Shown: piece by piece, positions 5,358 to 17,836 of the stretch
Position numbering within the stretch: position 1 is the first letter of the stretch
Layout of the letters: the number at the start of each line of letters is the position of its first letter
Virus record (IMG/VR): IMGVR_UViG_3300022467_001382
Location: 1 to 20,239 of that record
DNA from: a virus
DNA: 20,239 nt
Direction: 5' to 3' (one strand)
Notes under the pieces: generated by a model
Told to the model about the DNA's origin: nothing
Database searches by the model: none
What the model saw: the letters and a program-made list of their open reading frames with translations, nothing else
Position numbers and translations under genes: made by a program

Positions 5358-6182
5358 TTATTCGGTGATGGTCACGGACCCGACGCCCGTGGGGTCGAAG
5401 CCGATGAGATAGGTCCGCTCGGCGACGGCGTAGAGGTCGTTCTTCGTCCGGTCGAGCAGGTCGCCACGGACCTCGCTCGAGGTGAAGATGTCCGACCGGA
5501 ATCCGAAGAGCGCCGGGGTGGCCCGGATGCTGCCCGACGGGTATCCCGCGCCGGCGACGACCGGCGTGCCGAGAGCGGTGAACAGCTTGGAGCCGTTGGC
5601 CTTGAGGGTGCCGCTGGTCATGCCGGCGGCGGCGAGCTGGCGGTTCATGTGGATGATGCCAAGGCTGCCGTACGTGTCGGCGATGAAGCGCTCGAGGGCA
5701 CCGATCGCCGCGTTGATCTTGGAGACGTCGAACGTGCCGTTGTCGATCACGCCGTCGGTGAGGTTGGGCTGGTTGCCCTTCTCGCCGGTCCAGAAGTTGT
5801 GCTCCGCCTCGCGCTCCTCGAAGGTGAGGAGGTTCTCGGTTGCGCGGGCCTGAGCCTGCTCCGGCGTCCAGGCGATCGGCGAGACGACGAAGTGGCCGTA
5901 GACGGTGAAGGTGTCCGAGTGGATGAAGCCCGGGTCGAGGTCGTCGCCGGACTCGTCCATCGGGAAACCGAGGTTCTTGGGCAGCCCCGCGGTGTCGCTC
6001 TGCGGGTTCTGCACGGGGCCGATCGAGTCGACCGTGAACGGGTCGAGGTACTCGTGCACGACACCGCCACCGCGCCAGTGCGCGGACTCGTCGGGACGCA
6101 GGTCCACGACGCTGAGAAGTCCGAAGGGCAGCGGGATGCGCTGCGCGCCGGCGACCAGATCGGCCGGGGTGTAGTTCGCCAC
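5358..6182 (-). CDS. Second head structural protein (capsid-associated)
   Basis: A 274-residue protein following the major capsid gene. Notable segments are LPFGLLSVVDLR (residues 18-29), HWRGGGVVHEY, then DTFTVYGHFVVSP (90-102), ARATENLLTFEEREAEHNFWTG (112-133), a long helix NAAIGALERFIADTYGSLGIIHMN, then LFTALGTPVVAGAGYPSG and a C-terminal RTYLIGFDPTGVGSVTI. The pattern 'F.Vy....s......ea...A...l...E....E..fWtG' followed by a loop and 'lG.PVv.G.GY' is shared with actinophage head proteins variously labelled minor, pentamer or major capsid protein. It probably forms vertices or another capsid surface element; the exact role is inferred. GTG at 6182 has GAGGAG 6 nt upstream, a strong RBS suited to an abundant product. 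Confidence 0.6.
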   Translation of the reverse strand: MANYTPADLVAGAQRIPLPFGLLSVVDLRPDESAHWRGGGVVHEYLDPFTVDSIGPVQNPQSDTAGLPKNLGFPMDESGDDLDPGFIHSDTFTVYGHFVVSPIAWTPEQAQARATENLLTFEEREAEHNFWTGEKGNQPNLTDGVIDNGTFDVSKINAAIGALERFIADTYGSLGIIHMNRQLAAAGMTSGTLKANGSKLFTALGTPVVAGAGYPSGSIRATPALFGFRSDIFTSSEVRGDLLDRTKNDLYAVAERTYLIGFDPTGVGSVTITE

Positions 6183-6275: not shown

Positions 6276-8147
6276 TCAGGCCGCGGTGCCGTTGGCGGCG
6301 ATGTCCGCGCCGATGTTGGTCACACCGGTCGGGCTGATCGACGTGGTGACGAGACGGGAGTCGACGCCCGCCTTGGCCACGAAGTAGCCCTCCTCCGTGA
6401 AGAGCGCCGTGAAGTCGTTCTGGCCGAGGAGCACCGAGTCGTACAGGGTGTCCAGGGTCAGCACGTCCGACGTGCCCTTCACCCAGGTGCCCGCCGCGTA
6501 CAGCAGGAACTTGACGCTGGAGGCCCAGCTGGTGAAGGCGGTGTCAGCCGTCTCCGACGGGCTCTGCCAGTCGTAGACGAACTGCGGGGCCACGCCGCGC
6601 TCGGCGAACCACTGCGCGATGCGGGCGTCGTTGACGTCCGTCATGTCGACGCCGAGACGGCGGGACAGGTCGGAGCGGATCGCGCCGCGGATCCAGAACG
6701 GGAAGACCGCCTCGAGGGTCGAGCCACGCGCCATGCGGTACGTGTCGCGGTAGTGCTCCGTCTGGAGCTCGATCGCGGTCAGGACCGGGGCGAGCGCGCC
6801 GGCCTGCACGTCGGGGAGCGCGACCGAGGTCGACCCGAGCGCCATCTTGGAGATGACGTCCGCGTTGATCTTGTGGTCGTGGGCGACGAGCGCACCGCGG
6901 ATCACACGGGCCAGGTGCTCCGGGTACCCCCGGGCACCGAGGAGGCCGGAGGTGATGATCAGACCGTCGATGTCGAGGCGGTAGTCCTCGAACTCCGGCG
7001 GCTCGACGTGGTAGACGGGCTTGGTCCCGGCGGTGCCGTTGCCGACGCCATTCGAGTCCACGCCGTACTCACCGTCGACGTCCTCCTGCTCGGAGAAGTG
7101 GAAGCCGCGGATGTCCTGGTAGATCTCCTTGAAGGAGGGGCCAGGCGTGATCTGCACACCACCGCGGGTGACACCGATCTCCGGGAGCGAGAGGATGCCG
7201 TCGCGGCTCTCCAGCTCGAGGAACTCGTTGTAGAGGATCTCCGACGGGGCGTGCCAACCACCGGAGGCCACGAGCGAGTTGCCCTTGAGGTTGCGCTCGT
7301 CGGTGGCCCGCGTGACGACCTCCATGACGTGCTGGCGGTCGGTCGAGGTGATCGTCAGGTCCGCGGGGATGTCCTTGCGGATCGCCGCGAAGGTGCCGAT
7401 CTCGCGCATCTGCTGGCCGCGAGCCGCCGCACCCTCGTACTGGGTGAGGTTGAACGTGGACAGGCGGCGGTCGAGCGCCTTGCCGAGGTCGTCAAAGTCG
7501 ACGCCCGCGTCCTTGGCGAAGCCAAGGCCCTCGCCGCGGAGCGTGATGACGTCCTTCGCCGTCTTGCCGGAGCGCGAGGCGAGCGCCATGCGCGCGGCGG
7601 TCTGGACCTCCTGGCGGTTGCGGCCCTTGGGCAGCATCACCTGGAGCTTGCGGCCGTTCTTGCCGGAGGCGACCAGGGAGTCACCCTCCTGCACGACGTC
7701 CTCGCCGGCCAGGGCCTCGAGGTCCTCGACCGCGAGCTCGACGATGGCGGAGCCGTCGACGGTCGCGTCCGGGGTGGGCTCGGTGGCCAGGGTCTCGCTG
7801 CCGGCGGCGTCGGCCGCGGGGGCCTCACCCTGCGGGCGGACGCGAGCGGCCAGCGCTGCGGCGGCCTCCGCGTTCTGCGAGGCGAGCTCGGCGCGCGAGC
7901 CCTTCTCGCTGGCGAGCTTCTCGATCGCGTCGGTGAGGACGCCGAGCTTGGTCAGCGCCTCTCCGGTGACGTTGCCGTCGCCGTACGCGGTGTCGAAGGC
8001 TGCCACGGCGTCCGCGTGCAGCTGCTCGACCTCGGCGTCCGAGAGCTTCGAGAGATCGGTGGGGAGCTTGAACTCGGCACCGGTCGCGGCGCCCGAGTAA
8101 GCGGTGAGGCGGTCCACCAGCGGGGACCGCTTGCGGGGCTGGTTCAT
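6276..8147 (-). CDS. Major capsid protein with N-terminal delta-like domain
   Basis: A 623-residue protein. Residues 1-105 are helical (EVEQLHADAVAAFDTAYG, a coiled-coil-like scaffold or delta region). Residues 106-160 are acidic and flexible and end in SLVASG (157-162). Residues 163-290 are basic and mixed (DVITLRGEGLGFAKDAGVDF). From 291 on comes the HK97-fold coat protein, beginning SLVASGGWHAPSEILYNEF and followed by LPEIGVTRGGVQITPGPSF, GLLGARGYPEHLARVIRGAL (axial helix), and WIRGAIRSDLSRRLGVDM. The LVASG|GWHAP border is a good candidate for the maturation cut and would leave a mature subunit of about 328 residues. The start at 8147 has AAGGAG 6 nt upstream, directly preceded by a hairpin. 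It has its own leader after a terminator, suited to very high expression. Confidence 0.92.
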   Translation of the reverse strand: MNQPRKRSPLVDRLTAYSGAATGAEFKLPTDLSKLSDAEVEQLHADAVAAFDTAYGDGNVTGEALTKLGVLTDAIEKLASEKGSRAELASQNAEAAAALAARVRPQGEAPAADAAGSETLATEPTPDATVDGSAIVELAVEDLEALAGEDVVQEGDSLVASGKNGRKLQVMLPKGRNRQEVQTAARMALASRSGKTAKDVITLRGEGLGFAKDAGVDFDDLGKALDRRLSTFNLTQYEGAAARGQQMREIGTFAAIRKDIPADLTITSTDRQHVMEVVTRATDERNLKGNSLVASGGWHAPSEILYNEFLELESRDGILSLPEIGVTRGGVQITPGPSFKEIYQDIRGFHFSEQEDVDGEYGVDSNGVGNGTAGTKPVYHVEPPEFEDYRLDIDGLIITSGLLGARGYPEHLARVIRGALVAHDHKINADVISKMALGSTSVALPDVQAGALAPVLTAIELQTEHYRDTYRMARGSTLEAVFPFWIRGAIRSDLSRRLGVDMTDVNDARIAQWFAERGVAPQFVYDWQSPSETADTAFTSWASSVKFLLYAAGTWVKGTSDVLTLDTLYDSVLLGQNDFTALFTEEGYFVAKAGVDSRLVTTSISPTGVTNIGADIAANGTAA

Positions 8148-8159
8148 TGGGTTCTCCTT

Positions 8160-8194
8160 GTTGAGAGTTGGGGACGATGAACGTCCGTCTCAAC
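8160..8194 (-). promoter_or_regulatory. Hairpin abutting the capsid-gene RBS
   Basis: On the minus strand GTTGAGA (8194-8188) pairs with TCTCAAC (8166-8160), and inside it GGACG (8186-8182) pairs with CGTCC (8176-8172) around the 5-nt loop TTCAT; the internal loop is 1 by 5 nt. The stem ends exactly where the AAGGAG RBS begins (8159-8154). Hairpins placed just 5' of an exposed RBS are known to stabilise mRNAs and keep the site open, and that is the likeliest role here. Confidence 0.6.
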
Positions 8195-8242
8195 GAGGCC
8201 CTGCCAGAGGCGGCAAATGCCGCGCCATCCGCGATCGAGCTG

Positions 8243-8251
8243 ATCGTAGCA
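8243..8251 (-). promoter_or_regulatory. Candidate extended -10 promoter of the capsid operon
   Basis: The minus strand reads TGCTACGAT: an extended -10 (TGn) followed by TACGAT, which matches 4 of 6 bases of TATAAT. It sits downstream of the terminator at 8290-8316 and 96 bases before the capsid start codon, the place where a separate promoter is needed. No convincing -35 lies at 16-18 bases, so the call rests on position and the extended motif only. Confidence 0.3.
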
Positions 8252-8263
8252 GACCGATCGGTC
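8252..8263. promoter_or_regulatory. 12-bp palindrome beside the candidate capsid promoter
   Basis: GACCGATCGGTC is a perfect palindrome directly upstream of the extended -10 candidate, in the spacer where an operator would overlap RNA polymerase. It could bind a dimeric regulator. Short GATC-centred palindromes arise often in GC-rich DNA, so this is weak by itself. Confidence 0.3.
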
Positions 8264-8289
8264 GATTTGCGCGGCCCACAATGAAAGGA

Positions 8290-8316
8290 ACCCGCCCAGC
8301 GTGTCGCTGGACGGGC
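8290..8316 (-). terminator. Rho-independent terminator after the lysin gene
   Basis: In the minus-strand RNA CCCGUCCAGCG (8315-8305) pairs with CGCUGGGCGGG (8301-8291) through 11 bp, including one U-G pair, around the 3-nt loop ACA. It is followed by UUCCUUU. The same hairpin made from the plus strand would carry a C-A mismatch, so the structure favours the minus-strand transcript. It lies 80 bases past the lysin stop and separates the upstream head genes from the capsid leader. Confidence 0.7.
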
Positions 8317-8395
8317 CCAATCTGATCTCCGGGGGAGGCGATCTGGCTCCACGCTACCCCCGAATTGGGGATGTCGTCTATGCCGGATCGGCGTG

Positions 8396-9469
8396 TCAGA
8401 ACTTGCCGGCGTTGAGCGCGTTCTGCAGCGCGCGGATCGTGTTCGGCCCGCGCACCCCGTCGATGCCGCCCGGGTTGAAGCCGCGGTTGGCGAGGTACTG
8501 CTGCAGGTGGCGGTTGGTGTCCGGCCCGCGCTTGCCGTCCACCCCGGCGCCGGTCTTGCGCTGCTCGGCAGCGATAGTGACCGGACCCTCGATGCCGTCG
8601 GCTGGCACGCCGAGCGCGCGCTGCTCCGCGGAGATCGTCGCGCGTCCGAGGATGCCGTCGACCACGAGGCCCACGCCGAACAGGTGGCTGTCGGTGACTG
8701 GGCCGTAGATCCCGTCCGCGGTGATGCCGACACTCTGCTGGAACGCCTTGACCGCCGCGGTGGTCTTCGGGCCGTACACCCCGTCCACGCCGCCGGTGTC
8801 GTAGCCGCGCGCCACGAGGGCCCGCTGCACGTCGATCGTCGCGCGCGAGGTGATGTTCGTCGCGCCCGCCGGAGCCGAGGAGCCGGAGCCACCGGAGGCC
8901 AGCTGCGTCGAGCCGCCGAAGTCCGCCTGCAGGTTGCGGCAGAAGTCGATCATCCCGTTGACGTTGTGGCCGTTGGAGTACTGGTAGACCGCGGCGCGCG
9001 GGTCGACCTGTCCGCCGGACCACGCGTAGGTCTGGAAGCCCCACTTCGTCACGCCGGCGTCGAGCGCCTTCTTGACCACCCAGTAGCCGCCGTAGACGCC
9101 GGCACGGCCGCCGAGCACGCTGTTCGCGCCGCGCAGCGCGTCGTTGATCGCCGCCTGCTGGGAGTCGTTGGCGTCGAAGTCCACGCAGAAGTAGATCGGC
9201 TGCGCGGGCAGGCCGTTGTTCTTCCGGTAGGTCTCCGCCTTCTGGGCGCAGGCCACGCCCGCGGCGTAGCCGCCGAGCAGCTCGCGGCCGTCCTCCTCGT
9301 AGATCAGGAACACGGCGACGCCGTTGCCCACGAGGTCGTTCCACTCGCTCTGGTTGATGCCCTTGCTGGCGGTGTTGTACCAGAGGTAGCGGCCGGCGAA
9401 CAGCTTGCCGGCGTTGTGGAGGACGGCGCCTCCGGGTCGGGCGAACGAGTAGTCGCAGCCTTCGGCCAT
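8396..9469 (-). CDS. Lysin: DUF1906 glycoside-hydrolase-like domain plus DG-repeat wall-binding tail
   Basis: A 357-residue protein. Residues 1-185 match the DUF1906 / Rv2525c-like fold, a TIM-barrel related to GH25 lysozymes: GCDYSFARPGG at the start, FAGRYLWYNTASKGI, then VFLIYEEDGRELLGGYAAG (acidic 58-60), PIYFCVDFDAND (acidic D97, D99) and GVYGGYWVVKKAL, ending with YQYSNGHNVNGMIDF. A Gly/Ser linker (190-205) leads to a peptidoglycan-binding region with six copies of D-G-x-x-G-x-x-T at residues 229, 252, 271, 291, 311 and 337. There is no signal peptide. It most likely cleaves host peptidoglycan as the endolysin, or as a virion-associated hydrolase given its place among head genes. AGGAG lies 9 nt before ATG 9469. 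No holin gene is recognisable beside it. Confidence 0.85.
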   Translation of the reverse strand: MAEGCDYSFARPGGAVLHNAGKLFAGRYLWYNTASKGINQSEWNDLVGNGVAVFLIYEEDGRELLGGYAAGVACAQKAETYRKNNGLPAQPIYFCVDFDANDSQQAAINDALRGANSVLGGRAGVYGGYWVVKKALDAGVTKWGFQTYAWSGGQVDPRAAVYQYSNGHNVNGMIDFCRNLQADFGGSTQLASGGSGSSAPAGATNITSRATIDVQRALVARGYDTGGVDGVYGPKTTAAVKAFQQSVGITADGIYGPVTDSHLFGVGLVVDGILGRATISAEQRALGVPADGIEGPVTIAAEQRKTGAGVDGKRGPDTNRHLQQYLANRGFNPGGIDGVRGPNTIRALQNALNAGKF

Positions 9470-9494
9470 GTGCTTCTTCTCCTGTCGGATCGGG

Positions 9495-9698
9495 TTACTT
9501 CGGGGCGATGGTCGCGCCGATGCGGACGGCCGCGGCCTGAGCCTCGAGCAGCGACCCGGTGAAGCTCTGGGTCTTGCCGCTCGAGGTCGTCAGCGTGAAG
9601 CTCTGGGTCTGGCTGGCCAGGCCGCCGGCCGGCGTCTGCCCGGACGGACGGCTCCCGTGGCCGTGAGCCTGCGGCTTCGGCTTGTTGCAGTCGCACAT
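9495..9698 (-). CDS. Small MCDC-motif protein (DUF7196-like)
   Basis: A 67-residue protein starting MCDCNKPKPQAHGHG. A short Cys/His-rich basic N-terminus is followed by FTLTTSSGKTQSFTGSLLEAQAAAVRIGA, a beta hairpin and helix. Tiny proteins that begin M-C-x-C-N and end with such a 'T..eA.a.a...G' element are common in actinophage head modules; I associate them with DUF7196, from memory. Function is unknown, perhaps a metal-binding accessory. It starts 2 nt after the protease gene stop with AGGGG 8 nt upstream, so it is probably translationally coupled. It lies 25 nt before the lysin start. Confidence 0.65.
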   Translation of the reverse strand: MCDCNKPKPQAHGHGSRPSGQTPAGGLASQTQSFTLTTSSGKTQSFTGSLLEAQAAAVRIGATIAPK

Positions 9699-9700
9699 GG

Positions 9701-12700
9701 TCAGATCCCCTTCCGCTGCAGCGCACGCTTCGCGGCGTACGCGCTCACCTTCGCCTCGGTGCTCGCGGCCAGCGCGCGGCTGCGGAGCTCCTCGGCCTGC
9801 ATGTTCCGCTCGCGCTGCGCCGCCTTCTTCAGGTAGCGCAGGTCCTCGAGCGAGAGCGCACCGGGCTTTCCCGGCGCGATGACGCGCTCCGGCGGGAGCA
9901 TCCCGGCCGCCTGCAGCGTCTGCAGCGCGCCCGAGGCCACCAGGCCACGCGGCCGCGGCACCGGGAAGCCGGGCTGGTTGACCGCAAGGCCCATCACCAG
10001 CTCCATCGAGCCGTCCGCCTGTCGGCGCCAGTCACCGGAGAGCGGGCTGGCCTTGAACGCGCGGATCTGCGCCGGCGTCGCGTCGGGACGCAGCGCGCCC
10101 GCGACCCAGATGCCGTACTCGTCCTCGCCCGCGTGCACATCGGCGATCGCCATTCCGGTGTTCTCGTAGTGGTCCAGCGTGCGCCGGGTGTTCCAGTGGC
10201 CCTCGGCGTGCCGGGTGTTCATCACCAGGCGGCCGACGCCGACGTCCTGGCCCTCTGCGGTCGTGACGACCCCGAGGTGGAACAGCGCGTAGCCGCTGCG
10301 GCTCTTCGGCGCGGTGACGCACTCGCTGACGCCGTTCGGCATCGCGAGGTGGCAGACGTCGAAGGTGGCCAGGTGGCCGTAGACGCGGCCCTCGGGCGTG
10401 ACGTGGATCGGCGTGCGGCCGGCCAGGTGCGGGTTCTCGAACCAGGCCTTCGGCGGCGCGATCGGCGCGGCCAGCGGGCGCTCGGCGATCTGGGCACCCG
10501 AGGCCACGAGGGCTCGCTGCTCCGGCTCGTAGCGCGGGCCGTTCTCGATCGAGAACTCGTCCTCGACCGCAGCCATCTTGGCCTTCGGCTTCTTGCCGGA
10601 GTCCTCACCCGAATCGGCCGGTGCGCCGGAATCCGCAGGAGCCCCGGAGTCCTCTGTCGCACCCGAGTCTGCCGGCGCACCGGAGTCGTTCGCTCCGGAG
10701 TCCGCCGCCCCGCTGTCCGCCGGAGCGGTACCGGAGTCGGCGGCTCCGGAGTCCTGCGCACCACTGTCGCCCGAGTCCGCGCCGCTGTCAACGCCGCTCT
10801 CGGCACCGGAGTCGGTGGCCAGCGGGTTCGTCGGCGCGGGCGGGTTCGCGTCCACGTCGTCGGTCGCCGCGAAGATCGCGTCGAGCACGGTCTTCTGGGT
10901 GCCGATCTCCGTGCCGTCCTCACGGGTGAGCGTCCACTCGGTCCCGTCCTCGTTTGGCGTGATCGTCCAGCCCACCTCGTTGGTGAAGCCATCGCCGCTC
11001 GGCTGGAACCCGAGTGCCTCGGCGACCGCGGCGTTGGCCTTGATCGTCGCGGCCTTCTTCTGGTCGTCGGTGAGCGCCGCGAAGTTCAGCTCGGCCGGGT
11101 TCAGCTCGACGGCGTGCTTGGCCGCCTTCTTGGCGCCGGTCGCCGCCTTCATCGCCTCCCACTGCGCGACGGCGGCCGAGGCCTTCGCCACGGTGGACGC
11201 GTTGACGTGCGGCGCCTTGGACTTGCCGGTCACGGTGCCGCCGCGGGCCCAGCGCTTCGCCACGTTGACGGCCACCGCGATCGCGCGCGACTGGCTGTAG
11301 CTCGGGTTCGCCTTGCGGATGTGGCTGGCCAGGAACTTGATGTAGGGCGGCAGTCCGCCGGCCTTCTCCACCCAGTTCTTGCGCTTGTAGGTGTCGGTCA
11401 GCGCGCCCCAGGCCGGAGCCGAGACGATGGCCGGCTCGATCGACACCGGCGTCGGCACGGCCTCCGGGGCCTGGCCGACGTTGATGTCGATGTCGAAGTC
11501 GCTGTCGATGCCGGGCTCGGTGACGCCGATGCCGTGGCGGTCCAGCGTCTCGTCCCAGTCCACCGGACCGGTCGGCTTGCCGGGGATCGTCTCGGCGACC
11601 GCGGCCTCCACGCTGCCCGCCGCCGAGTACGGCGAGAGCACGCGGGTCAGCTCATGCAGCTCCTTGCGGGAGACGTTGGTGGTCTGGTCCGCGTTCTCCG
11701 CCTTGTTCAGCGCGACCAGGGCGTCGTCGATGTCCTCCGGGCCCTGCTTGCCGAGCGCGGTGATCGCCTGGTTGATGAAGCTCTTGGCGTCCTGGCCGAT
11801 GTCCAGGCCCTCGAGGGTGGCCACCGCCGCCTCGATTGCCTCCGCCGCCTCGCCGAGGTCCTGCATGTAGTCGCCGGCCTCGATGAAGTCGCCGAGCACG
11901 CCGACCAGCTCGTCGCTGTCCATGTCCCAGCTGCGGCGGAAGGTGGCGACCGCGGCCTGCTCGTCGGCGGTGCCCTCGTACGGCGTCAGGAAGTAGGCGT
12001 TCCACGCGGCGTCGCGCACGGCGCGCGCGGCGGCCTCCACGACGATGCCCGACTCGCGGATCGTCTTGGAGTCGCCGGAGTTGATCGCCGCGGTGGAGTC
12101 CTCGGCCGCCTGGATCAGGTCGGCGAGCGCCTTGCCGATCGGCACCCGGTCGAAGGTCTCGGCGTGGTAGTCGGTGCCGAGGTAGTCGAGCACGTCGTCC
12201 ACGGTCACCGTGCCGAGGGTCGAGGTGTCGTCGGCCGAGATGATCTTGGCCAGGTCCTCGAGCACGGTGTTCAGCGACTCCACGAGGTCGGCCGGCTTGG
12301 CCAGCGGCCCCTTGTTGCCGAAGTCGTAGTCGTGCCAGTCCTCGGTGGCGTGCTTCACGTCCGCGAAGCTCGCGCCCTGACGGGCCAGCTCCATCCGGCG
12401 CTTGAGCGCAGCGGCCTGGTTCTTGGCGAGGATCTTCTGGAACAGCGCGTCGATCTCGTCCTTGAGCGCCTGGATGTCCTCGTCGTCGAGCGGCGCGTCG
12501 TCGCCCGCGGCGTCGTCGGTCGCGGTCTCGTCGTCGGCGATCTGGTCGCCGCTGTCCACACCGCTGTCCACAGCCTGTGCACCGCTGTCGGCCGGCTGGT
12601 AGTCGTGGTCGGTGTCGCCCGACTCGGTGAGGTCGTTGTCGCCGTCGTGGTCCGGGTCCGGGTTGGCCGGCGTCGGCTGCGCGCCGGAGTCCGCGGCCAC

Positions 12701-13291
12701 CGCGCCGCTGTCCTGCACACCGGAGTCGGCACCGGAGTCCTCGCCGCTGTCCTCCGTGGTCACCGTGTAATGCGCGATCCGCGCCGGCGCGAAGGCCGGG
12801 ATCGCCACGATCGTAGCGGCGCGCACACGCGCGGCCGTGGTGACCATGACGTCCTCCTCCTCGTTGGAGAGGGTGACGCCGTTGGAGGCCACGTCCACGC
12901 CGGAGCGCACCTCGAAGCCCACGTCGTCGAGGTCCATCGAGATGCCGTTGGTGAGCTTCTTCATGACGTGGCGCAGCGCCTCGGATCCCGCGACGCCCTC
13001 CTCGTCGAAGTCGCCGTCCGCCCAGATCACGCTGGTGTTCGCCGGAAGGTTGATCTCCGGCTCGCCCATCTCGGCCAGGCGGCTGTTCGCCTCGTCGAGG
13101 CCGATCCGCTCGAGGGACTCGATGTGGCCGACGACCTGCGCGCCGTCATGAGCGCCGACGTCCTCGGCGGTGTAGCGAAGCGGCACCGGGAGCGAGTCCC
13201 AGCGCAGTGCCTCCGGCTCGATGAAGCGGTTGTCCCCAGTGGGCGCGTTCTCGAAGCCGATCGGACCCTTCCAGCGGTTGAGCGTGCCCAT
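9701..13291 (-). CDS. Giant capsid maturation protease-scaffold polyprotein
   Basis: A 1196-residue protein in five parts. (1) Residues 1-178: the prohead-protease domain, with PTGDNRFIEPEALRWDSLPVPL, His 48 and His 56 in HDGAQVVGHIES, a probable catalytic Ser 118 in NGISMDLD, and the closing ATIVAIPAFAPARI. (2) 181-248: an acidic DSG-repeat linker. (3) 270-810: a helical middle with coiled coils (ALKDEIDALFQKILAK), including a basic domain at 635-716 (KRKNWVEKAGGLPPYI, then SRAIAVAVNVAKRWARGG). (4) 827-899: a second DSG linker. (5) 920-1196: the conserved actinophage C-terminal protease-associated domain (GRVYGHLATFDVCH, HYENTGMAIADVHAGEDEYGIWVAGALRPD, SGDWR, NQPGFPVPRPR). Such proteases usually reach 500-700 residues, so the extra mass is the middle, plausibly a built-in scaffold. 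LVASG at 928 and 1117 could be self-processing sites. GGGAG lies 6 nt before ATG 13291. Confidence 0.88.
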   Translation of the reverse strand: MGTLNRWKGPIGFENAPTGDNRFIEPEALRWDSLPVPLRYTAEDVGAHDGAQVVGHIESLERIGLDEANSRLAEMGEPEINLPANTSVIWADGDFDEEGVAGSEALRHVMKKLTNGISMDLDDVGFEVRSGVDVASNGVTLSNEEEDVMVTTAARVRAATIVAIPAFAPARIAHYTVTTEDSGEDSGADSGVQDSGAVAADSGAQPTPANPDPDHDGDNDLTESGDTDHDYQPADSGAQAVDSGVDSGDQIADDETATDDAAGDDAPLDDEDIQALKDEIDALFQKILAKNQAAALKRRMELARQGASFADVKHATEDWHDYDFGNKGPLAKPADLVESLNTVLEDLAKIISADDTSTLGTVTVDDVLDYLGTDYHAETFDRVPIGKALADLIQAAEDSTAAINSGDSKTIRESGIVVEAAARAVRDAAWNAYFLTPYEGTADEQAAVATFRRSWDMDSDELVGVLGDFIEAGDYMQDLGEAAEAIEAAVATLEGLDIGQDAKSFINQAITALGKQGPEDIDDALVALNKAENADQTTNVSRKELHELTRVLSPYSAAGSVEAAVAETIPGKPTGPVDWDETLDRHGIGVTEPGIDSDFDIDINVGQAPEAVPTPVSIEPAIVSAPAWGALTDTYKRKNWVEKAGGLPPYIKFLASHIRKANPSYSQSRAIAVAVNVAKRWARGGTVTGKSKAPHVNASTVAKASAAVAQWEAMKAATGAKKAAKHAVELNPAELNFAALTDDQKKAATIKANAAVAEALGFQPSGDGFTNEVGWTITPNEDGTEWTLTREDGTEIGTQKTVLDAIFAATDDVDANPPAPTNPLATDSGAESGVDSGADSGDSGAQDSGAADSGTAPADSGAADSGANDSGAPADSGATEDSGAPADSGAPADSGEDSGKKPKAKMAAVEDEFSIENGPRYEPEQRALVASGAQIAERPLAAPIAPPKAWFENPHLAGRTPIHVTPEGRVYGHLATFDVCHLAMPNGVSECVTAPKSRSGYALFHLGVVTTAEGQDVGVGRLVMNTRHAEGHWNTRRTLDHYENTGMAIADVHAGEDEYGIWVAGALRPDATPAQIRAFKASPLSGDWRRQADGSMELVMGLAVNQPGFPVPRPRGLVASGALQTLQAAGMLPPERVIAPGKPGALSLEDLRYLKKAAQRERNMQAEELRSRALAASTEAKVSAYAAKRALQRKGI
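10595..10813 (-). repeat. DSG-repeat linker 2 of the maturation protease
   Basis: Residues 827-899 contain 14 DSG triplets and one ESG, in units of four to seven residues (DSGA, AADSG, APADSG). The tract is acidic and almost certainly disordered. It separates the helical middle from the conserved C-terminal domain. At DNA level it is a degenerate tandem repeat, not an exact one, which suggests the protein composition rather than the DNA is under selection. Confidence 0.9.
12548..12751 (-). repeat. DSG-repeat linker 1 of the maturation protease
   Basis: Residues 181-248 carry eight DSG triplets in two bunches, around a segment rich in Asp, Pro and Asn. The tract follows immediately on the protease domain and precedes the helical middle. 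The phrase YQPADSGA at 231-238 recurs exactly in the neighbouring DSGA protein. Confidence 0.85.
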
Positions 13292-13372: not shown

Positions 13373-14125
13373 TCAGCGCGGCGAGATCATCACGCAGCGG
13401 CAGTTGGCGATGTTCGCCAGGCTGCCACGACGGTCGCCGGGATACTGCAGCGGCTCGCCGCCGACCGTGAAGTAGCTCTCGATCGGCACGGTCTGGCCGT
13501 CCGCCTCGAGGTGGTCCGGCCGGGTGTGGTCGTCGTGGTGCGCGACCCAGCGCTTCTCCGCGCGCCGGCCGACACGGAAGGCCTGCTGCGCGACGAATCC
13601 GCTGAATCCGGTGAACCCGGTGCGCACCGTGCGCTTCACCCGGGCCCGCCAGGTCGCGCCGAGCTGCCGGAACTCCCCGTAGAAGTCGCGCTGGGCGATG
13701 TCGCCACCCGCCGCCGTGATGCTCGGCGTCTCGAGGTCGAGCGCGAGGTCCAGCGCCGCGCTGACAGCCTTCTCGTCGATGGTGGTCTTCAGCGTGTAGT
13801 CGACCCGGGTCGCCGCGGTCATCACCGCCATCGCACTGGCGTAGGCCTCCTCGCCGAGGTCCAGCTCCGCGAGGCTGTCCGAGAGGTAGCGCCACTCCTG
13901 GCTGCCGCGCTCCAGGCCACTGGCCGCCAGCGTGTCGACGATGGCCTGGTGCCAGCGGTTCGTTGCGAAGGCCGGCTGCAGGCTGCGAGCCAGCGCCTGC
14001 TTCTTCACCGCGAGGAGCATCGCCTTCGTCTCGCGCACCAGGGCGCGCTCGAGGCGGGACTCGTCCGCGGACTGCTGGCTGAGCGCCTTGCCGGGACTGA
14101 CGAAGCGCTCAGCCAGCGTGTCCAT
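13373..14125 (-). CDS. MuF-like minor head protein
   Basis: A 250-residue protein. The N-terminal two-thirds is helical (ETKAMLLAVKKQALARSLQPAF, SDSLAELDLGEEAYASAMAV). The C-terminal domain has the phage Mu F / SPP1 gp7 signature: RRAEKRWVAHHDDHTRPDHLEADGQTVP with R202-x-x-H205, then ESYFTVGGEPLQYPGDRRGS and a final IANCRC (Cys 242 and 244). These proteins bind the portal inside the head and may be ejected with or protect the DNA; a few carry toxin domains in the same position, but none is present here. ATG 14125 follows the TAA of the upstream gene with no gap, and GAGG lies 5 nt before it, so the two genes are coupled. The gap of 81 bases to the protease gene shows no promoter or terminator. 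Confidence 0.85.
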   Translation of the reverse strand: MDTLAERFVSPGKALSQQSADESRLERALVRETKAMLLAVKKQALARSLQPAFATNRWHQAIVDTLAASGLERGSQEWRYLSDSLAELDLGEEAYASAMAVMTAATRVDYTLKTTIDEKAVSAALDLALDLETPSITAAGGDIAQRDFYGEFRQLGATWRARVKRTVRTGFTGFSGFVAQQAFRVGRRAEKRWVAHHDDHTRPDHLEADGQTVPIESYFTVGGEPLQYPGDRRGSLANIANCRCVMISPR

Positions 14126-15112
14126 TTAGCCCTCGCTGATCGGGGTGTTCGGCTGCGCGGTCGTCGCGGGCAGCGGAGCGGCGTCCGAGGTGGTCTGCGC
14201 CTCGGTGTTGCTGACAGCCGGCGCCGCCACGTCACTGGCGTTCGCCGTGTTCTGCGGCTGCGCGGCGGCGAGCTTCTCGGCCACCGGGTCGGTGCTCACG
14301 GCGTCCGGAGGCAGCGGCGAGTTGTCGGCGGTGAGGTTCGTGCCCTCGCCCACGACGTCGCTGACGGCCACGGTCTGCGGGCTGTTCGGGTTGCCGTTGT
14401 TCACCGGCACCTCGCCGTCCGGCACCGCGTCCGCCGGCAGCGCGTCGCGCTCGGTGACCGAGCTCGGCTGCGCGTTGTCGGTCGAGTTGACGACGCCGGC
14501 GTCCTGCTGCGGCGTGCCCGGGTGGCTCACGATCTCGGCGTCAGCCGATGCGCCCGCGGATTCCCCGCTCGATGCCGAATCGGCAGGGCCGCTGGCGTCG
14601 GGGCCAGATGCCGTGGCCGTTCCCTCCACGTCGATCGGCTCTGCGCCGGATTCCGGAGCGCTCGCTCCCGAGTCCGCCACCGCGCCCGAATCCGCCGCAC
14701 CACTGTCCGAAGAGCTCGCATCGCCCGTACCCCCGGTGGCACCCTCGCTGGGTGCGCTCGGCTCGAGGGTAGCGGGCTCGCTCGCGGAGTCCTCGACCGG
14801 CGCGCCGCTGTCGGCGGGCTGGTAGGCCTCGACGGGTGGCAGCTCACCGGCGGCGACGGCCGAGCCGGAGTCCTCGGCGGCAGGAGTGGATGGCGTGGTG
14901 GCGGCGTTGCCGAACTCCTCGTTGAGGGCGTCCTCGATCAGCTCGATCTCGTCCTCCTCGGTCTGCTCGATGACCGCTTCGGCGCGGGCACGGATGTCGG
15001 CGAGCTTCTGCAGCTTCGGGTTGAGCTTCTTCTTGCCGGCGTCGCTCAGGTCCGCCTGGCCCAGGTCGGGCGTCTCGGACGTGTCGGGCGTTTCGGTGGG
15101 CTGGTCAGTCAT
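14126..15112 (-). CDS. Acidic disordered DSGA-repeat head-module protein
   Basis: A 328-residue protein. Residues 22-68 form a charged helix (KKLNPKLQKLADIRARAEAV, then EEDEIELIEDALNEEF), a likely coiled coil. From about 70 to the end it is low-complexity Ala/Ser/Pro/Asp/Thr-rich sequence. DSG occurs at 81, 101, 136, 141 and 147, with ESG at 154. No family is recognised. It lies between the CxxC protein and the MuF gene and has a strong RBS (AGGAG, 5 nt before ATG 15112, overlapping the previous TAG), so it is probably well expressed. A scaffold-type or internal head protein is a reasonable guess from its acidity, helix and location. Its resemblance to the protease linkers suggests the two work together or exchanged sequence. 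Confidence 0.75.
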   Translation of the reverse strand: MTDQPTETPDTSETPDLGQADLSDAGKKKLNPKLQKLADIRARAEAVIEQTEEDEIELIEDALNEEFGNAATTPSTPAAEDSGSAVAAGELPPVEAYQPADSGAPVEDSASEPATLEPSAPSEGATGGTGDASSSDSGAADSGAVADSGASAPESGAEPIDVEGTATASGPDASGPADSASSGESAGASADAEIVSHPGTPQQDAGVVNSTDNAQPSSVTERDALPADAVPDGEVPVNNGNPNSPQTVAVSDVVGEGTNLTADNSPLPPDAVSTDPVAEKLAAAQPQNTANASDVAAPAVSNTEAQTTSDAAPLPATTAQPNTPISEG

Positions 15113-15631: not shown

Positions 15632-17836
15632 TCACTGTCCCGTCAGGTCGAGGATGTCGTCGTCGATGGTCGGTTCGGCCGGCGCGAAGCCGAGCTGCTG
15701 GCTGAGGCTGCCGCGCAGTCCCATCCCGGAGATGCTCATCGTCGCACCGCGCTGGATCTGGTAGGCGCCCACCGGCTCCGGCGTCCAGTCCTTCTCCACC
15801 GTCAGCTCGGTGGGCGTGAACTCGTACTCGCCGTCCGGAAGGTTCAGCAGCTGCTCCGGGGTGTCCGGGATCGTCGCGAGGGCCGGCGCCGCCAGCGGGC
15901 TGCCCGCCGTTGACGGAACCGCTCCCGGGTTGCGCGCCGGGGTCTGACCGTTCGTGCCGGACGGCGCGACCGGCGGGCTGACCGGCTCGATTGGCCGCGG
16001 GTTGTCCGCGTCCTCGGCGTTCGGGCCGCTGATCGCGTCCCCGGCCACGTCGGGCGGCGTACCGTCGGTCGGGCCCATCGGGGTGCCGGCCAGCAGCGCC
16101 TTCAGCTGCTCCACGAGGATCGCCAGTCCCGGGCGCAGCATCAGCGCCGGGTCCTGCTGGACCATCTCGAAGGCGGCATTGATGGCCGGGTCGTCGATCT
16201 CCTCCTTGGGCGCGTCCTCCTCGTCGAAGCCGTTCGCCTTGCGCAGCGCCTTCGCGCTGATCGCGCCCTTCTCGTAGAGCACCTGCGCGTCGGCGGACCG
16301 GTTCGGCCGCACGATCAGGTCGGAGACGTCGTACCAGATCACCCACTGCTCGGCCTCGTCGACGCTCATCCCGTTCGCTACGAGGATCGGCCGCAGGTAC
16401 TGGGTGGTCAGCGCGTCGCAGATCAGCTGCAGCGGCGGCTCGATGTGCGCGGTGACGACCTCCTCCTGGACCAGCCAGGCGCCCCAGTGGTTCATGCCGT
16501 CGGTGCCGAGCAGCAGCTCGGGCGGCGCATCGAGGCCCAGCGCCAGCCGGCGGATGGCCTCCTCGCGCAGCGGGCGCGCCTCGGTGTCCAGCGGCTTGTC
16601 GAAGGTGATGTGGTGGAACTTGTCCGCCACGTCGTCCGGCGCGGTAACCACGAGCGGCACGACCGCGCTGGCGTTCGAGCGGTCGCCGATCGGCGTCAGC
16701 ATCGACTGGATCAGCGCGTCGGTGAACGGGTCCTCTGGGCTGTCGTCCGGGATGCCCTGCGCGCGCTTCGCGGCGCGGGACGCGGACTCGGGCACGACGA
16801 ACAGGCCGGCGCCCGCCAGCCGGGAATCGACCTGCGCCGAGATGTGCATTGTCAGGCCGACCAGCTCGCGCAGCACCGGAAGCGCCGAGCGGGTGGGGCT
16901 GTCTGCGCTCCACCAGTACTTCGGGTGCGGCCGCCAGACCCGGATCAGGTACAGGTCATCCGGACGCGCCCGGACGATCTCCTGCTCGGTCGGTCCGAGC
17001 CGGAGCTGCACCAAGTCGCCCTGCATGAACTGGACCTCGGCGATGGAGAGCATCCGCCAGTCCAGGTCATCCAGCGTGCTCTGATCCAGCGGCTCGTCGT
17101 CGACCTCGGCGGCCGGGTCCTTCGGCGTGCGGTCGACGCGCTGAGGCGAGGTGATCTCGCCGTAGCCGCGCTGGTTCGCCGGCGTCGTGCCGTTGCCGAC
17201 CTCACGCGCGTCGCGCTCGGCCTCGCTCTCCTCGAGCATGTCCTTCGGGATGCCGACCAGCCAGCCGTCGCCCGGGATGAACAGGTTGATGGTCAGCCGC
17301 TCCACCAGGCGGGACAGTCCGAGGTGGCCGTCGCCGAGCGCCGAGAGAATCTGCTTCTTGCTCTCGTCCTCGGTCGGGATCGGGTCGGTGCCAGGGTCGT
17401 TGGCGACCGTGCCGACGAACAGCTTGGCCTTCGAGGTGCGCTGGGCCAGGGTGGTGGCGACGAAGCGGAGCTCGCTCACCAGGTCGTACATGCTCCAGCC
17501 GTCGTCCTGCCAGCTCTCGTGCGTCGTGCGACGGAAGCTGGTGGAGGCAACGGTCTTGTTCGTGATCCGCACCGCGGACGCCGTGATCGAGTTGATCGCG
17601 CCCGGCATTGGCGCCAGGTTGCTCTCCCGGCCGCTCTGGCTCGGGCTCACGATCTCGTCGAAGCCACCGGGCCGGTGCTCGCGCTCCCACCACTTCTCGA
17701 TGACCTCGCCGGACTCGATAGCCTGCGCCCGCGCCGCCTTGCGCGTGGCCTCCTCGGTGGGGTCGTACGGCATGGGAGCACGGAACCCGAGGGCCCGTCG
17801 AATGAGGCCAGGGCGGTTCGGCGCGGTGTCGGACAT
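15632..17836 (-). CDS. Portal protein
   Basis: A 734-residue protein at the head of the structural genes. Residues 35-140 contain IESGEVIEKWWEREHRPGGF, NLAPMPGAINSITASAVRIT and SMYDLVSELRFVATTLAQRTSKAKLFVG. The middle has FIPGDGWLVGIP, the wing-like beta region RMLSIAEVQFMQGDLVQLRLG, LYLIRVWRPHPKYWWSADSP and ALPVLRELVGLTMHISAQVDSRLAGAGLFVVP. Further on are FHHITFDKPLDTEARPLRE and LGTDGMNHWGAWLVQEEVVT, features shared by actinophage portals that form the dodecameric ring at the DNA-entry vertex. The C-terminal 150 residues are Pro/Gly/Asn-rich and loosely organised, which makes it longer than the usual 450-550. GGGAG lies 5 nt before ATG 17836. The terminase expected upstream is not in the window; other genes intervene. 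Confidence 0.88.
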   Translation of the reverse strand: MSDTAPNRPGLIRRALGFRAPMPYDPTEEATRKAARAQAIESGEVIEKWWEREHRPGGFDEIVSPSQSGRESNLAPMPGAINSITASAVRITNKTVASTSFRRTTHESWQDDGWSMYDLVSELRFVATTLAQRTSKAKLFVGTVANDPGTDPIPTEDESKKQILSALGDGHLGLSRLVERLTINLFIPGDGWLVGIPKDMLEESEAERDAREVGNGTTPANQRGYGEITSPQRVDRTPKDPAAEVDDEPLDQSTLDDLDWRMLSIAEVQFMQGDLVQLRLGPTEQEIVRARPDDLYLIRVWRPHPKYWWSADSPTRSALPVLRELVGLTMHISAQVDSRLAGAGLFVVPESASRAAKRAQGIPDDSPEDPFTDALIQSMLTPIGDRSNASAVVPLVVTAPDDVADKFHHITFDKPLDTEARPLREEAIRRLALGLDAPPELLLGTDGMNHWGAWLVQEEVVTAHIEPPLQLICDALTTQYLRPILVANGMSVDEAEQWVIWYDVSDLIVRPNRSADAQVLYEKGAISAKALRKANGFDEEDAPKEEIDDPAINAAFEMVQQDPALMLRPGLAILVEQLKALLAGTPMGPTDGTPPDVAGDAISGPNAEDADNPRPIEPVSPPVAPSGTNGQTPARNPGAVPSTAGSPLAAPALATIPDTPEQLLNLPDGEYEFTPTELTVEKDWTPEPVGAYQIQRGATMSISGMGLRGSLSQQLGFAPAEPTIDDDILDLTGQ

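Follow-up and report, generated by a model that had tools for sequence, protein, structure and literature searches.

A conserved L-[V/T/I]-A-[S/A]-[G/A] motif at domain borders of phage head proteins as a predicted maturation cleavage signal

Results

LVASG copies in the capsid protein and the protease

The analyzed DNA, hereafter the window, is the complete stretch of 20,239 bp from the IMG/VR virus record IMGVR_UViG_3300022467_001382. It harbors the gene for a major capsid (hexamer) protein, which is preceded by the gene for a capsid maturation protease polyprotein, an order that is also found in relatives (Table 1). The pentapeptide LVASG occurs twice in each of the two proteins, exactly at the residues reported in the initial annotation, and is the sole 5-mer present at least two times in both of them. 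Among 2000 composition shuffles, none contained any 5-mer at least twice in both proteins. The four copies are written with four different codon strings, hence, the repetition exists at the protein level and does not represent a DNA repeat. No gene product of the window other than capsid protein and protease contains the strict motif L[VTI]A[SA][GA]; looser forms are present in the portal protein (ITASA at residue 84) and the MuF-like protein (ITAAG at residue 136).

Table 1. Features of the window related to the motif (residues refer to the respective protein; the arrow marks a supposed cut).
Feature	Position	Strand	Remarks
Major capsid (hexamer) protein, 623 amino acids	6276..8147	-	PHROG 777 major head protein, E 4e-128; AlphaFold2, Foldseek
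Capsid site 1, LVASG, residues 158-162	7662..7676	-	Disordered acidic linker ahead of basic patch; predicted cleavage site
Capsid site 2, LVASG, residues 292-296	7260..7274	-	Scaffold/coat border, followed by GWHAPSEI; predicted maturation cleavage site
Predicted mature coat, residues 295-623 (329 amino acids) if cut A↓S	6279..7265	-	Inferred from border conservation and model
Capsid maturation protease polyprotein, 1196 amino acids	9701..13291	-	PHROG matches; homologues annotated capsid maturation protease
Protease N-terminal domain, residues 1-178, possibly assemblin-like, conserved H48, S118, R155	12758..13291	-	Model, structure matches, conservation
C-terminal protease-like domain, residues 945-1105, H981/H1028/S1085, SGDWR	9977..10459	-	LVASG on both sides
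Protease site 1, LVASG, residues 928-932	10496..10510	-	N border of C-terminal domain; predicted self-cleavage site
Protease site 2, LVASG, residues 1117-1121	9929..9943	-	C border of C-terminal domain; predicted self-cleavage site
LQAAG, protease residues 1126-1130	9902..9916	-	Imperfect copy of second C-border motif; LVAAG in most relatives
Portal protein, 734 amino acids	15632..17836	-	Homologous to annotated portals; probable third substrate
Portal ITASA, residues 84-88	17573..17587	-	25 residues before conserved WQxxxW; predicted cleavage site removing N-terminal tail
MuF-like protein ITAAG, residues 136-140	13706..13720	-	Weak candidate site
Pentamer capsid protein homologue	5358-6182		After hexamer capsid gene

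The capsid protein consists of an N-terminal scaffold region (residues 1-291) and a coat with HK97 fold from about residue 297/311 to its end. In the AlphaFold2 model, a helical part (1-103) is followed by a disordered segment (108-192) that holds the first LVASG, a folded part (197-291), a second disordered segment (294-310) at the second LVASG and finally the coat, i.e. a scaffold-like N-terminal extension is joined to the coat through a flexible border. The fold of the coat part was supported by 124 Foldseek matches at E <= 0.001 (best 2.6e-6), of which the 50 listed are capsids of phages, gene transfer agents or satellites and encapsulins. Relatives of the capsid protein were found by tblastn in 848 phage records and those of the protease domain in 831, in both cases nearly all from phages of actinobacteria.

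The protease matches PHROG 859, 21470, 18402 and 29860 with E values from 2e-73 to 1e-42 (2e-73 to 2e-51 for 859, 18402 and 21470); one of these four PHROGs is named head maturation protease. Its AlphaFold2 model shows a confident N-terminal domain (1-178), a long linker mostly of low confidence, a confident C-terminal domain (approximately 945-1105), a disordered stretch and a last helix. All four LVASG copies lie beside folded domains, within stretches with a predicted local distance difference test (pLDDT) score <50 or at their margins. For the capsid copies these stretches are 123-180 and 294-310; the protease copies lie inside 810-942 and 1106-1140, where they flank the confident C-terminal domain. 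The initial annotation had placed one capsid copy directly ahead of the mature coat fold (GWHAPSEI), one protease copy between a disordered linker and the C-terminal domain, and the other ahead of the last helix; these placements agree with the models, in which the last helix comprises residues 1148-1195.

The N-terminal domain could be aligned to several herpesvirus proteases over approximately 105-121 residues, with Z scores of 6.0-7.6, i.e. below the caution line of 8 of the tool, and a root-mean-square deviation around 3. H48 is conserved in 72 and S118 in 73 of 74 sequences, and R155 is also kept. In the C-terminal domain, H981, H1028 and S1085 are invariant in all 81 distinct proteases compared; this motif-flanked, protease-like domain is present in every relative found. 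Two serine-protease-like domains, both with putative catalytic residues, are present in the polyprotein. Neither the protease of the window nor its 27 homologues matched a curated Pfam protease family, and sequence searches of the PDB with the capsid protein, the protease and an N-domain profile gave nothing relevant. The predicted order of histidine, strand, strand, helix and serine-bearing strand looks alike in the two domains. A duplication detectable at the sequence level was rejected, because the profile comparison did not reach significance, with E 0.014 for one single pair and a probability of 3%. Acidic repeats of the DSGA type are common to the protease linker (9701-13291) and a neighboring protein of 328 residues (14126-15112).

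Conservation of the motif at capsid borders

The relatives compared comprised 14 annotated phages and 80 metagenomic contigs. The contigs were picked by the pattern GW[CH][AS]PS[EQ]xxY, therefore, the conservation of GW and the residues after it results from data selection, while the residues before GW are unaffected. When 88 distinct capsid sequences were anchored on GW, the border ahead of it read S-L-[V/T]-A-[A/S]-[G/A]-G, with L at position -6 (67 sequences), A at -4 (78), A or S at -3 (77), and G or A at -2 (72). In this respect the shared motif postulated from the exact pentapeptide has to be modified: its recurrence at the borders was confirmed, LVASG as such is not conserved and gives way to the consensus L-[V/T/I]-A-[S/A]-[G/A]. 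The window itself shows GWHAPSE (7251-7259), whereas 87 of the 88 borders have GWCAPSE, so that the near-invariant cysteine is changed to histidine only here.

The first capsid site is conserved as well. The equivalent linker contains a motif copy in 70 of the 88 capsid proteins, compared to 13.7% with shuffled sequences and 9.4% in windows of the coat, and it is mostly followed by basic residues. Therefore, the scaffold is probably cut at two sites. The distant phage Pumpernickel has a capsid protein without GWCAPSE, yet LVAAG occurs in this protein and at both borders of the protease domain. For the TPA2 capsid gene (L009:6255-7496), the annotated start seems to be placed too far downstream: with its upstream extension, the open frame comprises 581 instead of 413 annotated amino acids and includes VVAAGKN as first-site motif.

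Conservation of the motif in proteases

A test profile was built from the capsid borders only and then run over the 81 proteases. Of the 81 sequences, 41 gave a hit at the N border of the C-terminal domain and 56 at its C border, compared to 1.4% and 1.6%, respectively, with shuffled borders and a background of 3.3% elsewhere in the proteases and 1.9% inside the C-terminal domain. The residues flanking the motif are poorly conserved in the proteases, in an alignment that was anchored on the motif and thus biases the motif's own score upward. Per 1000 amino acids, the strict motif occurs 2.33 times in proteases and 1.99 times in capsid proteins, compared to 0.17 in other plus-strand open reading frames of at least 180 amino acids and approximately 0.1 in shuffles; its density in capsid proteins and proteases is thus about 12-fold that of the other frames. 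In some proteases, the likeness to the capsid border goes well beyond the core of the motif. Directly at the N border of the C-terminal domain, the proteases of L077 and L078 carry LVASGGWCAPSEW; the longer capsid border sequence reads LVASGGWCAPSE in L077, close forms exist in L062, L065 and L056, and L037 also has a capsid-like sequence there. In the proteases of L008, L009, L010 and L001, a copy of the capsid border ([AS]GGWxAPSE or ASGGWGTPYA) is located in another linker, away from the border of the C-terminal domain; L008, L009 and L010 belong to the cluster B type and carry [AS]GGWxAPSE.

Portal and neighboring proteins

The same motif is common to capsid protein, protease and portal. 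Within 45 residues before the conserved WQxxAW, 21 of 30 portal proteins carry it (4.7% with shuffling, 6.3% in the rest of the portal), mostly 21-29 residues ahead and in the form [L/I]-[V/T/I]-A-[S/A]-[A/S], where it precedes the folded part. The portal would probably be a third substrate. The MuF-like protein was rejected as a firm substrate and kept as a weak one, the linker with ITAAG being shared by only some relatives.

The pentamer protein lacks an N-terminal extension, and no conserved copy of the motif was found in it. Counterparts exist at 85 loci, some of them annotated as 'major capsid pentamer protein'. Because a separate pentamer homologue is kept and in part annotated as such, vertices and faces of the shell probably consist of different proteins. 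A probable lysin gene (8396-9469) is located between the protease and capsid genes, where lysis genes are not usually situated; judged by eye, its product has a glycoside hydrolase-like domain followed by repeats of the peptidoglycan-binding type.

Discussion

We consider it very likely that LVASG represents the window's version of a conserved site recognized by the head maturation protease, L-[V/T/I]-A-[S/A]-[G/A], at which capsid protein, protease and portal would be cut. The motif is best read as such a signal, because it is located at loose borders of all three proteins and flanks a protease-like domain. A role as cleavage recognition sequence had already been proposed in the initial annotation, and the comparison of sequences argues for it: the alignment of both proteins, suggested there to see whether L-V-A-[SA]-G is kept at these points, revealed the motif at the borders of both proteins across distant relatives, and LVASG was found neither buried in the folded capsid protein nor absent from homologues. 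The capsid-like sequences in the linkers of several proteases also speak for this role.

According to the proposed mechanism, the protease would enter the procapsid as a long polyprotein. During head maturation it would cut the capsid protein at the scaffold/coat border (residues 292-296), with a probable second cut within the scaffold (158-162), and self-cleavage at 928-932 and 1117-1121 would release the C-terminal protease-like domain. The N-terminal tail of the portal would probably be removed at ITASA (84-88). The conservation is focused on L, on A and on the small residue that follows A, hence, A↓S or A↓A is a first guess for the bond. The coat staying in the shell would then comprise about 327-329 residues, 329 with a cut at A↓S and 327 if the cut follows LVASG, the initial annotation having given about 328 residues. 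A more detailed scenario is tentative and, with all its parts taken together, rather doubtful. In the two-serine-domain polyprotein of a large group of actinophages, the C-terminal domain, which has an uncharacterised fold with Ser-His-His and SGDWR, might excise itself at L-[VT]-A↓[SA]-[GA] and trim the capsid protein twice as well as the portal, while some of these phages might reuse the capsid border sequence (S)GGWCAPSE as new N-terminus of the freed protease, the signal matching the V/L-x-A↓S of assemblin.

Several points weigh against the proposed role as cleavage signal. Around half of the proteases have no strong copy at the N border. One clade shows altered forms, namely LTAAV in the capsid protein and LTAAL or LVASL at the C border, and no motif in the portal. 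The protease of phage Bakery (L007) is a separate gene that starts only approximately 10 residues before the first motif copy, hence, release of the domain cannot be the whole purpose there. The homologues are related by descent, so that the counts among relatives are not independent. A Foldseek search with the full protease model gave no match below E 0.001, the best rows being helical proteins on the linker region, and a literature search, which did not extend to supplements, found neither the motif nor experimental N-termini or virion mass spectra for this phage family. Finally, no convincing covariation was detected between capsid protein and protease of one phage at the P2, P1' and P2' residues (permutation p 0.03-1.0), and a phage-specific co-evolution of the exact pentapeptide was rejected. 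The comparison thus describes the motif as a shared consensus and not as a phage-specific code, and the exact identity of the four copies in the window is partly due to chance within this fixed consensus.

With regard to the enzyme, the motif might be cut by the N-terminal assemblin-like domain with H48 and S118 instead of the C-terminal domain, an alternative that we regard as less likely but serious. The N-terminal domain is the only part that gave protease-like structural matches, namely the herpesvirus proteases mentioned above, and its H48, S118 and R155 are conserved. However, Bakery, Galadriel and L087 keep the C-terminal domain and the motif, although searches of the two complete phage genomes and of the 64.8-kb contig of L087 did not detect the N-terminal domain; positive controls were detected. 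This argument from absence favors the C-terminal domain as reader of the motif.

An unlikely explanation is that the motif serves as a docking element, which binds a pocket on the protease or capsid protein and gathers the procapsid proteins without being cut. It would fit that capsid protein, protease and portal are all procapsid components, and that stand-alone proteases, for instance that of Bakery, retain the motif at their N-terminus, where cleavage would take off no more than about ten residues. However, the copies are found at domain borders and on both sides of the C-terminal domain as short cores of small residues by disordered linkers, as is the case for the cleavage sites of T4 and SPN3US, and a scaffold of approximately 290 residues left on the coat would be unusual for an HK97-fold phage encoding a protease.

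Even less probable is a likeness without present function, in which the border segments of capsid protein and protease share ancestry through copying of one from the other. In L077/L078, L062, L065 and L056, the protease border indeed resembles the capsid border well past the pentapeptide (GWCAPSE/D). However, most phages including the one of the window share only the five-residue core while the flanks differ, and several copies per protein, four codon spellings and conservation within otherwise unconserved linkers point to selection. Chance recurrence in proteins rich in A, L, V and G has a negligible probability and is already refuted by the shuffles and the strong positional conservation across relatives.

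The cleavage signal proposed here would be a new consensus for a known kind of process. These proteins are encoded by more than 800 sequenced phages, among them phages of Mycobacterium, Gordonia, Microbacterium and Streptomyces, and the literature searched yielded no rule for how they are cleaved. A rule that can be read from the sequence would predict the mature ends of capsid protein, portal and protease, would tell structural studies exactly where the borders lie, and makes it simple to test which of the two protease-like domains cuts.

Comparison with known systems

The annotated capsid maturation proteases and MuF fusions of actinophages such as Rasputia, Jayden and Phleuron are direct homologues that carry the motif and do not differ in kind; among the annotations read, none records a cleavage site. 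In HK97, the N-terminal scaffold of the gp5 capsid protein, the delta domain of approximately 100 residues, is removed by the protease gp4. The capsid protein of the window likewise has an N-terminal scaffold fused to a coat of HK97 fold, the removal of which is predicted, but its scaffold comprises 291 residues with two candidate sites instead of one border, and its two-domain protease is much larger. The prohead protease gp21 of phage T4 cuts after L/I-x-E. In T4, too, a common motif exists in many prohead proteins including the protease, however, the P1 residue of T4 is acidic and no such residue is present in the motif of the window. A close precedent is the Salmonella phage SPN3US, whose prohead protease gp245 cuts after AXE in the capsid protein, the portal, other head proteins and itself (PMC10052503). 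Hence, one short motif marks the cuts in capsid protein, portal and protease as predicted here, and the propeptides are mostly N-terminal (PMC10052503). In contrast, the SPN3US motif ends in Glu, whereas the core in the window is formed by Ala with Ser/Ala and Gly/Ala behind it, and the protease domain has the motif on either side.

The cleavage sites of herpesvirus assemblin have the form V/L/I-x-A↓S, which would fit LVA↓SG. In this system (pUL26/pUL80a), the protease is fused to a further protein and freed by internal self-cleavage (PMC4498786, PMC8537868). The N-terminal domain of the window protease may be assemblin-like in its fold, a weak resemblance with Z scores below 8, but no sequence match was found, and in the window the motif flanks another part of the protease. 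Should A↓S prove to be the bond, phage and herpesvirus maturation would have a further feature in which they can be compared.

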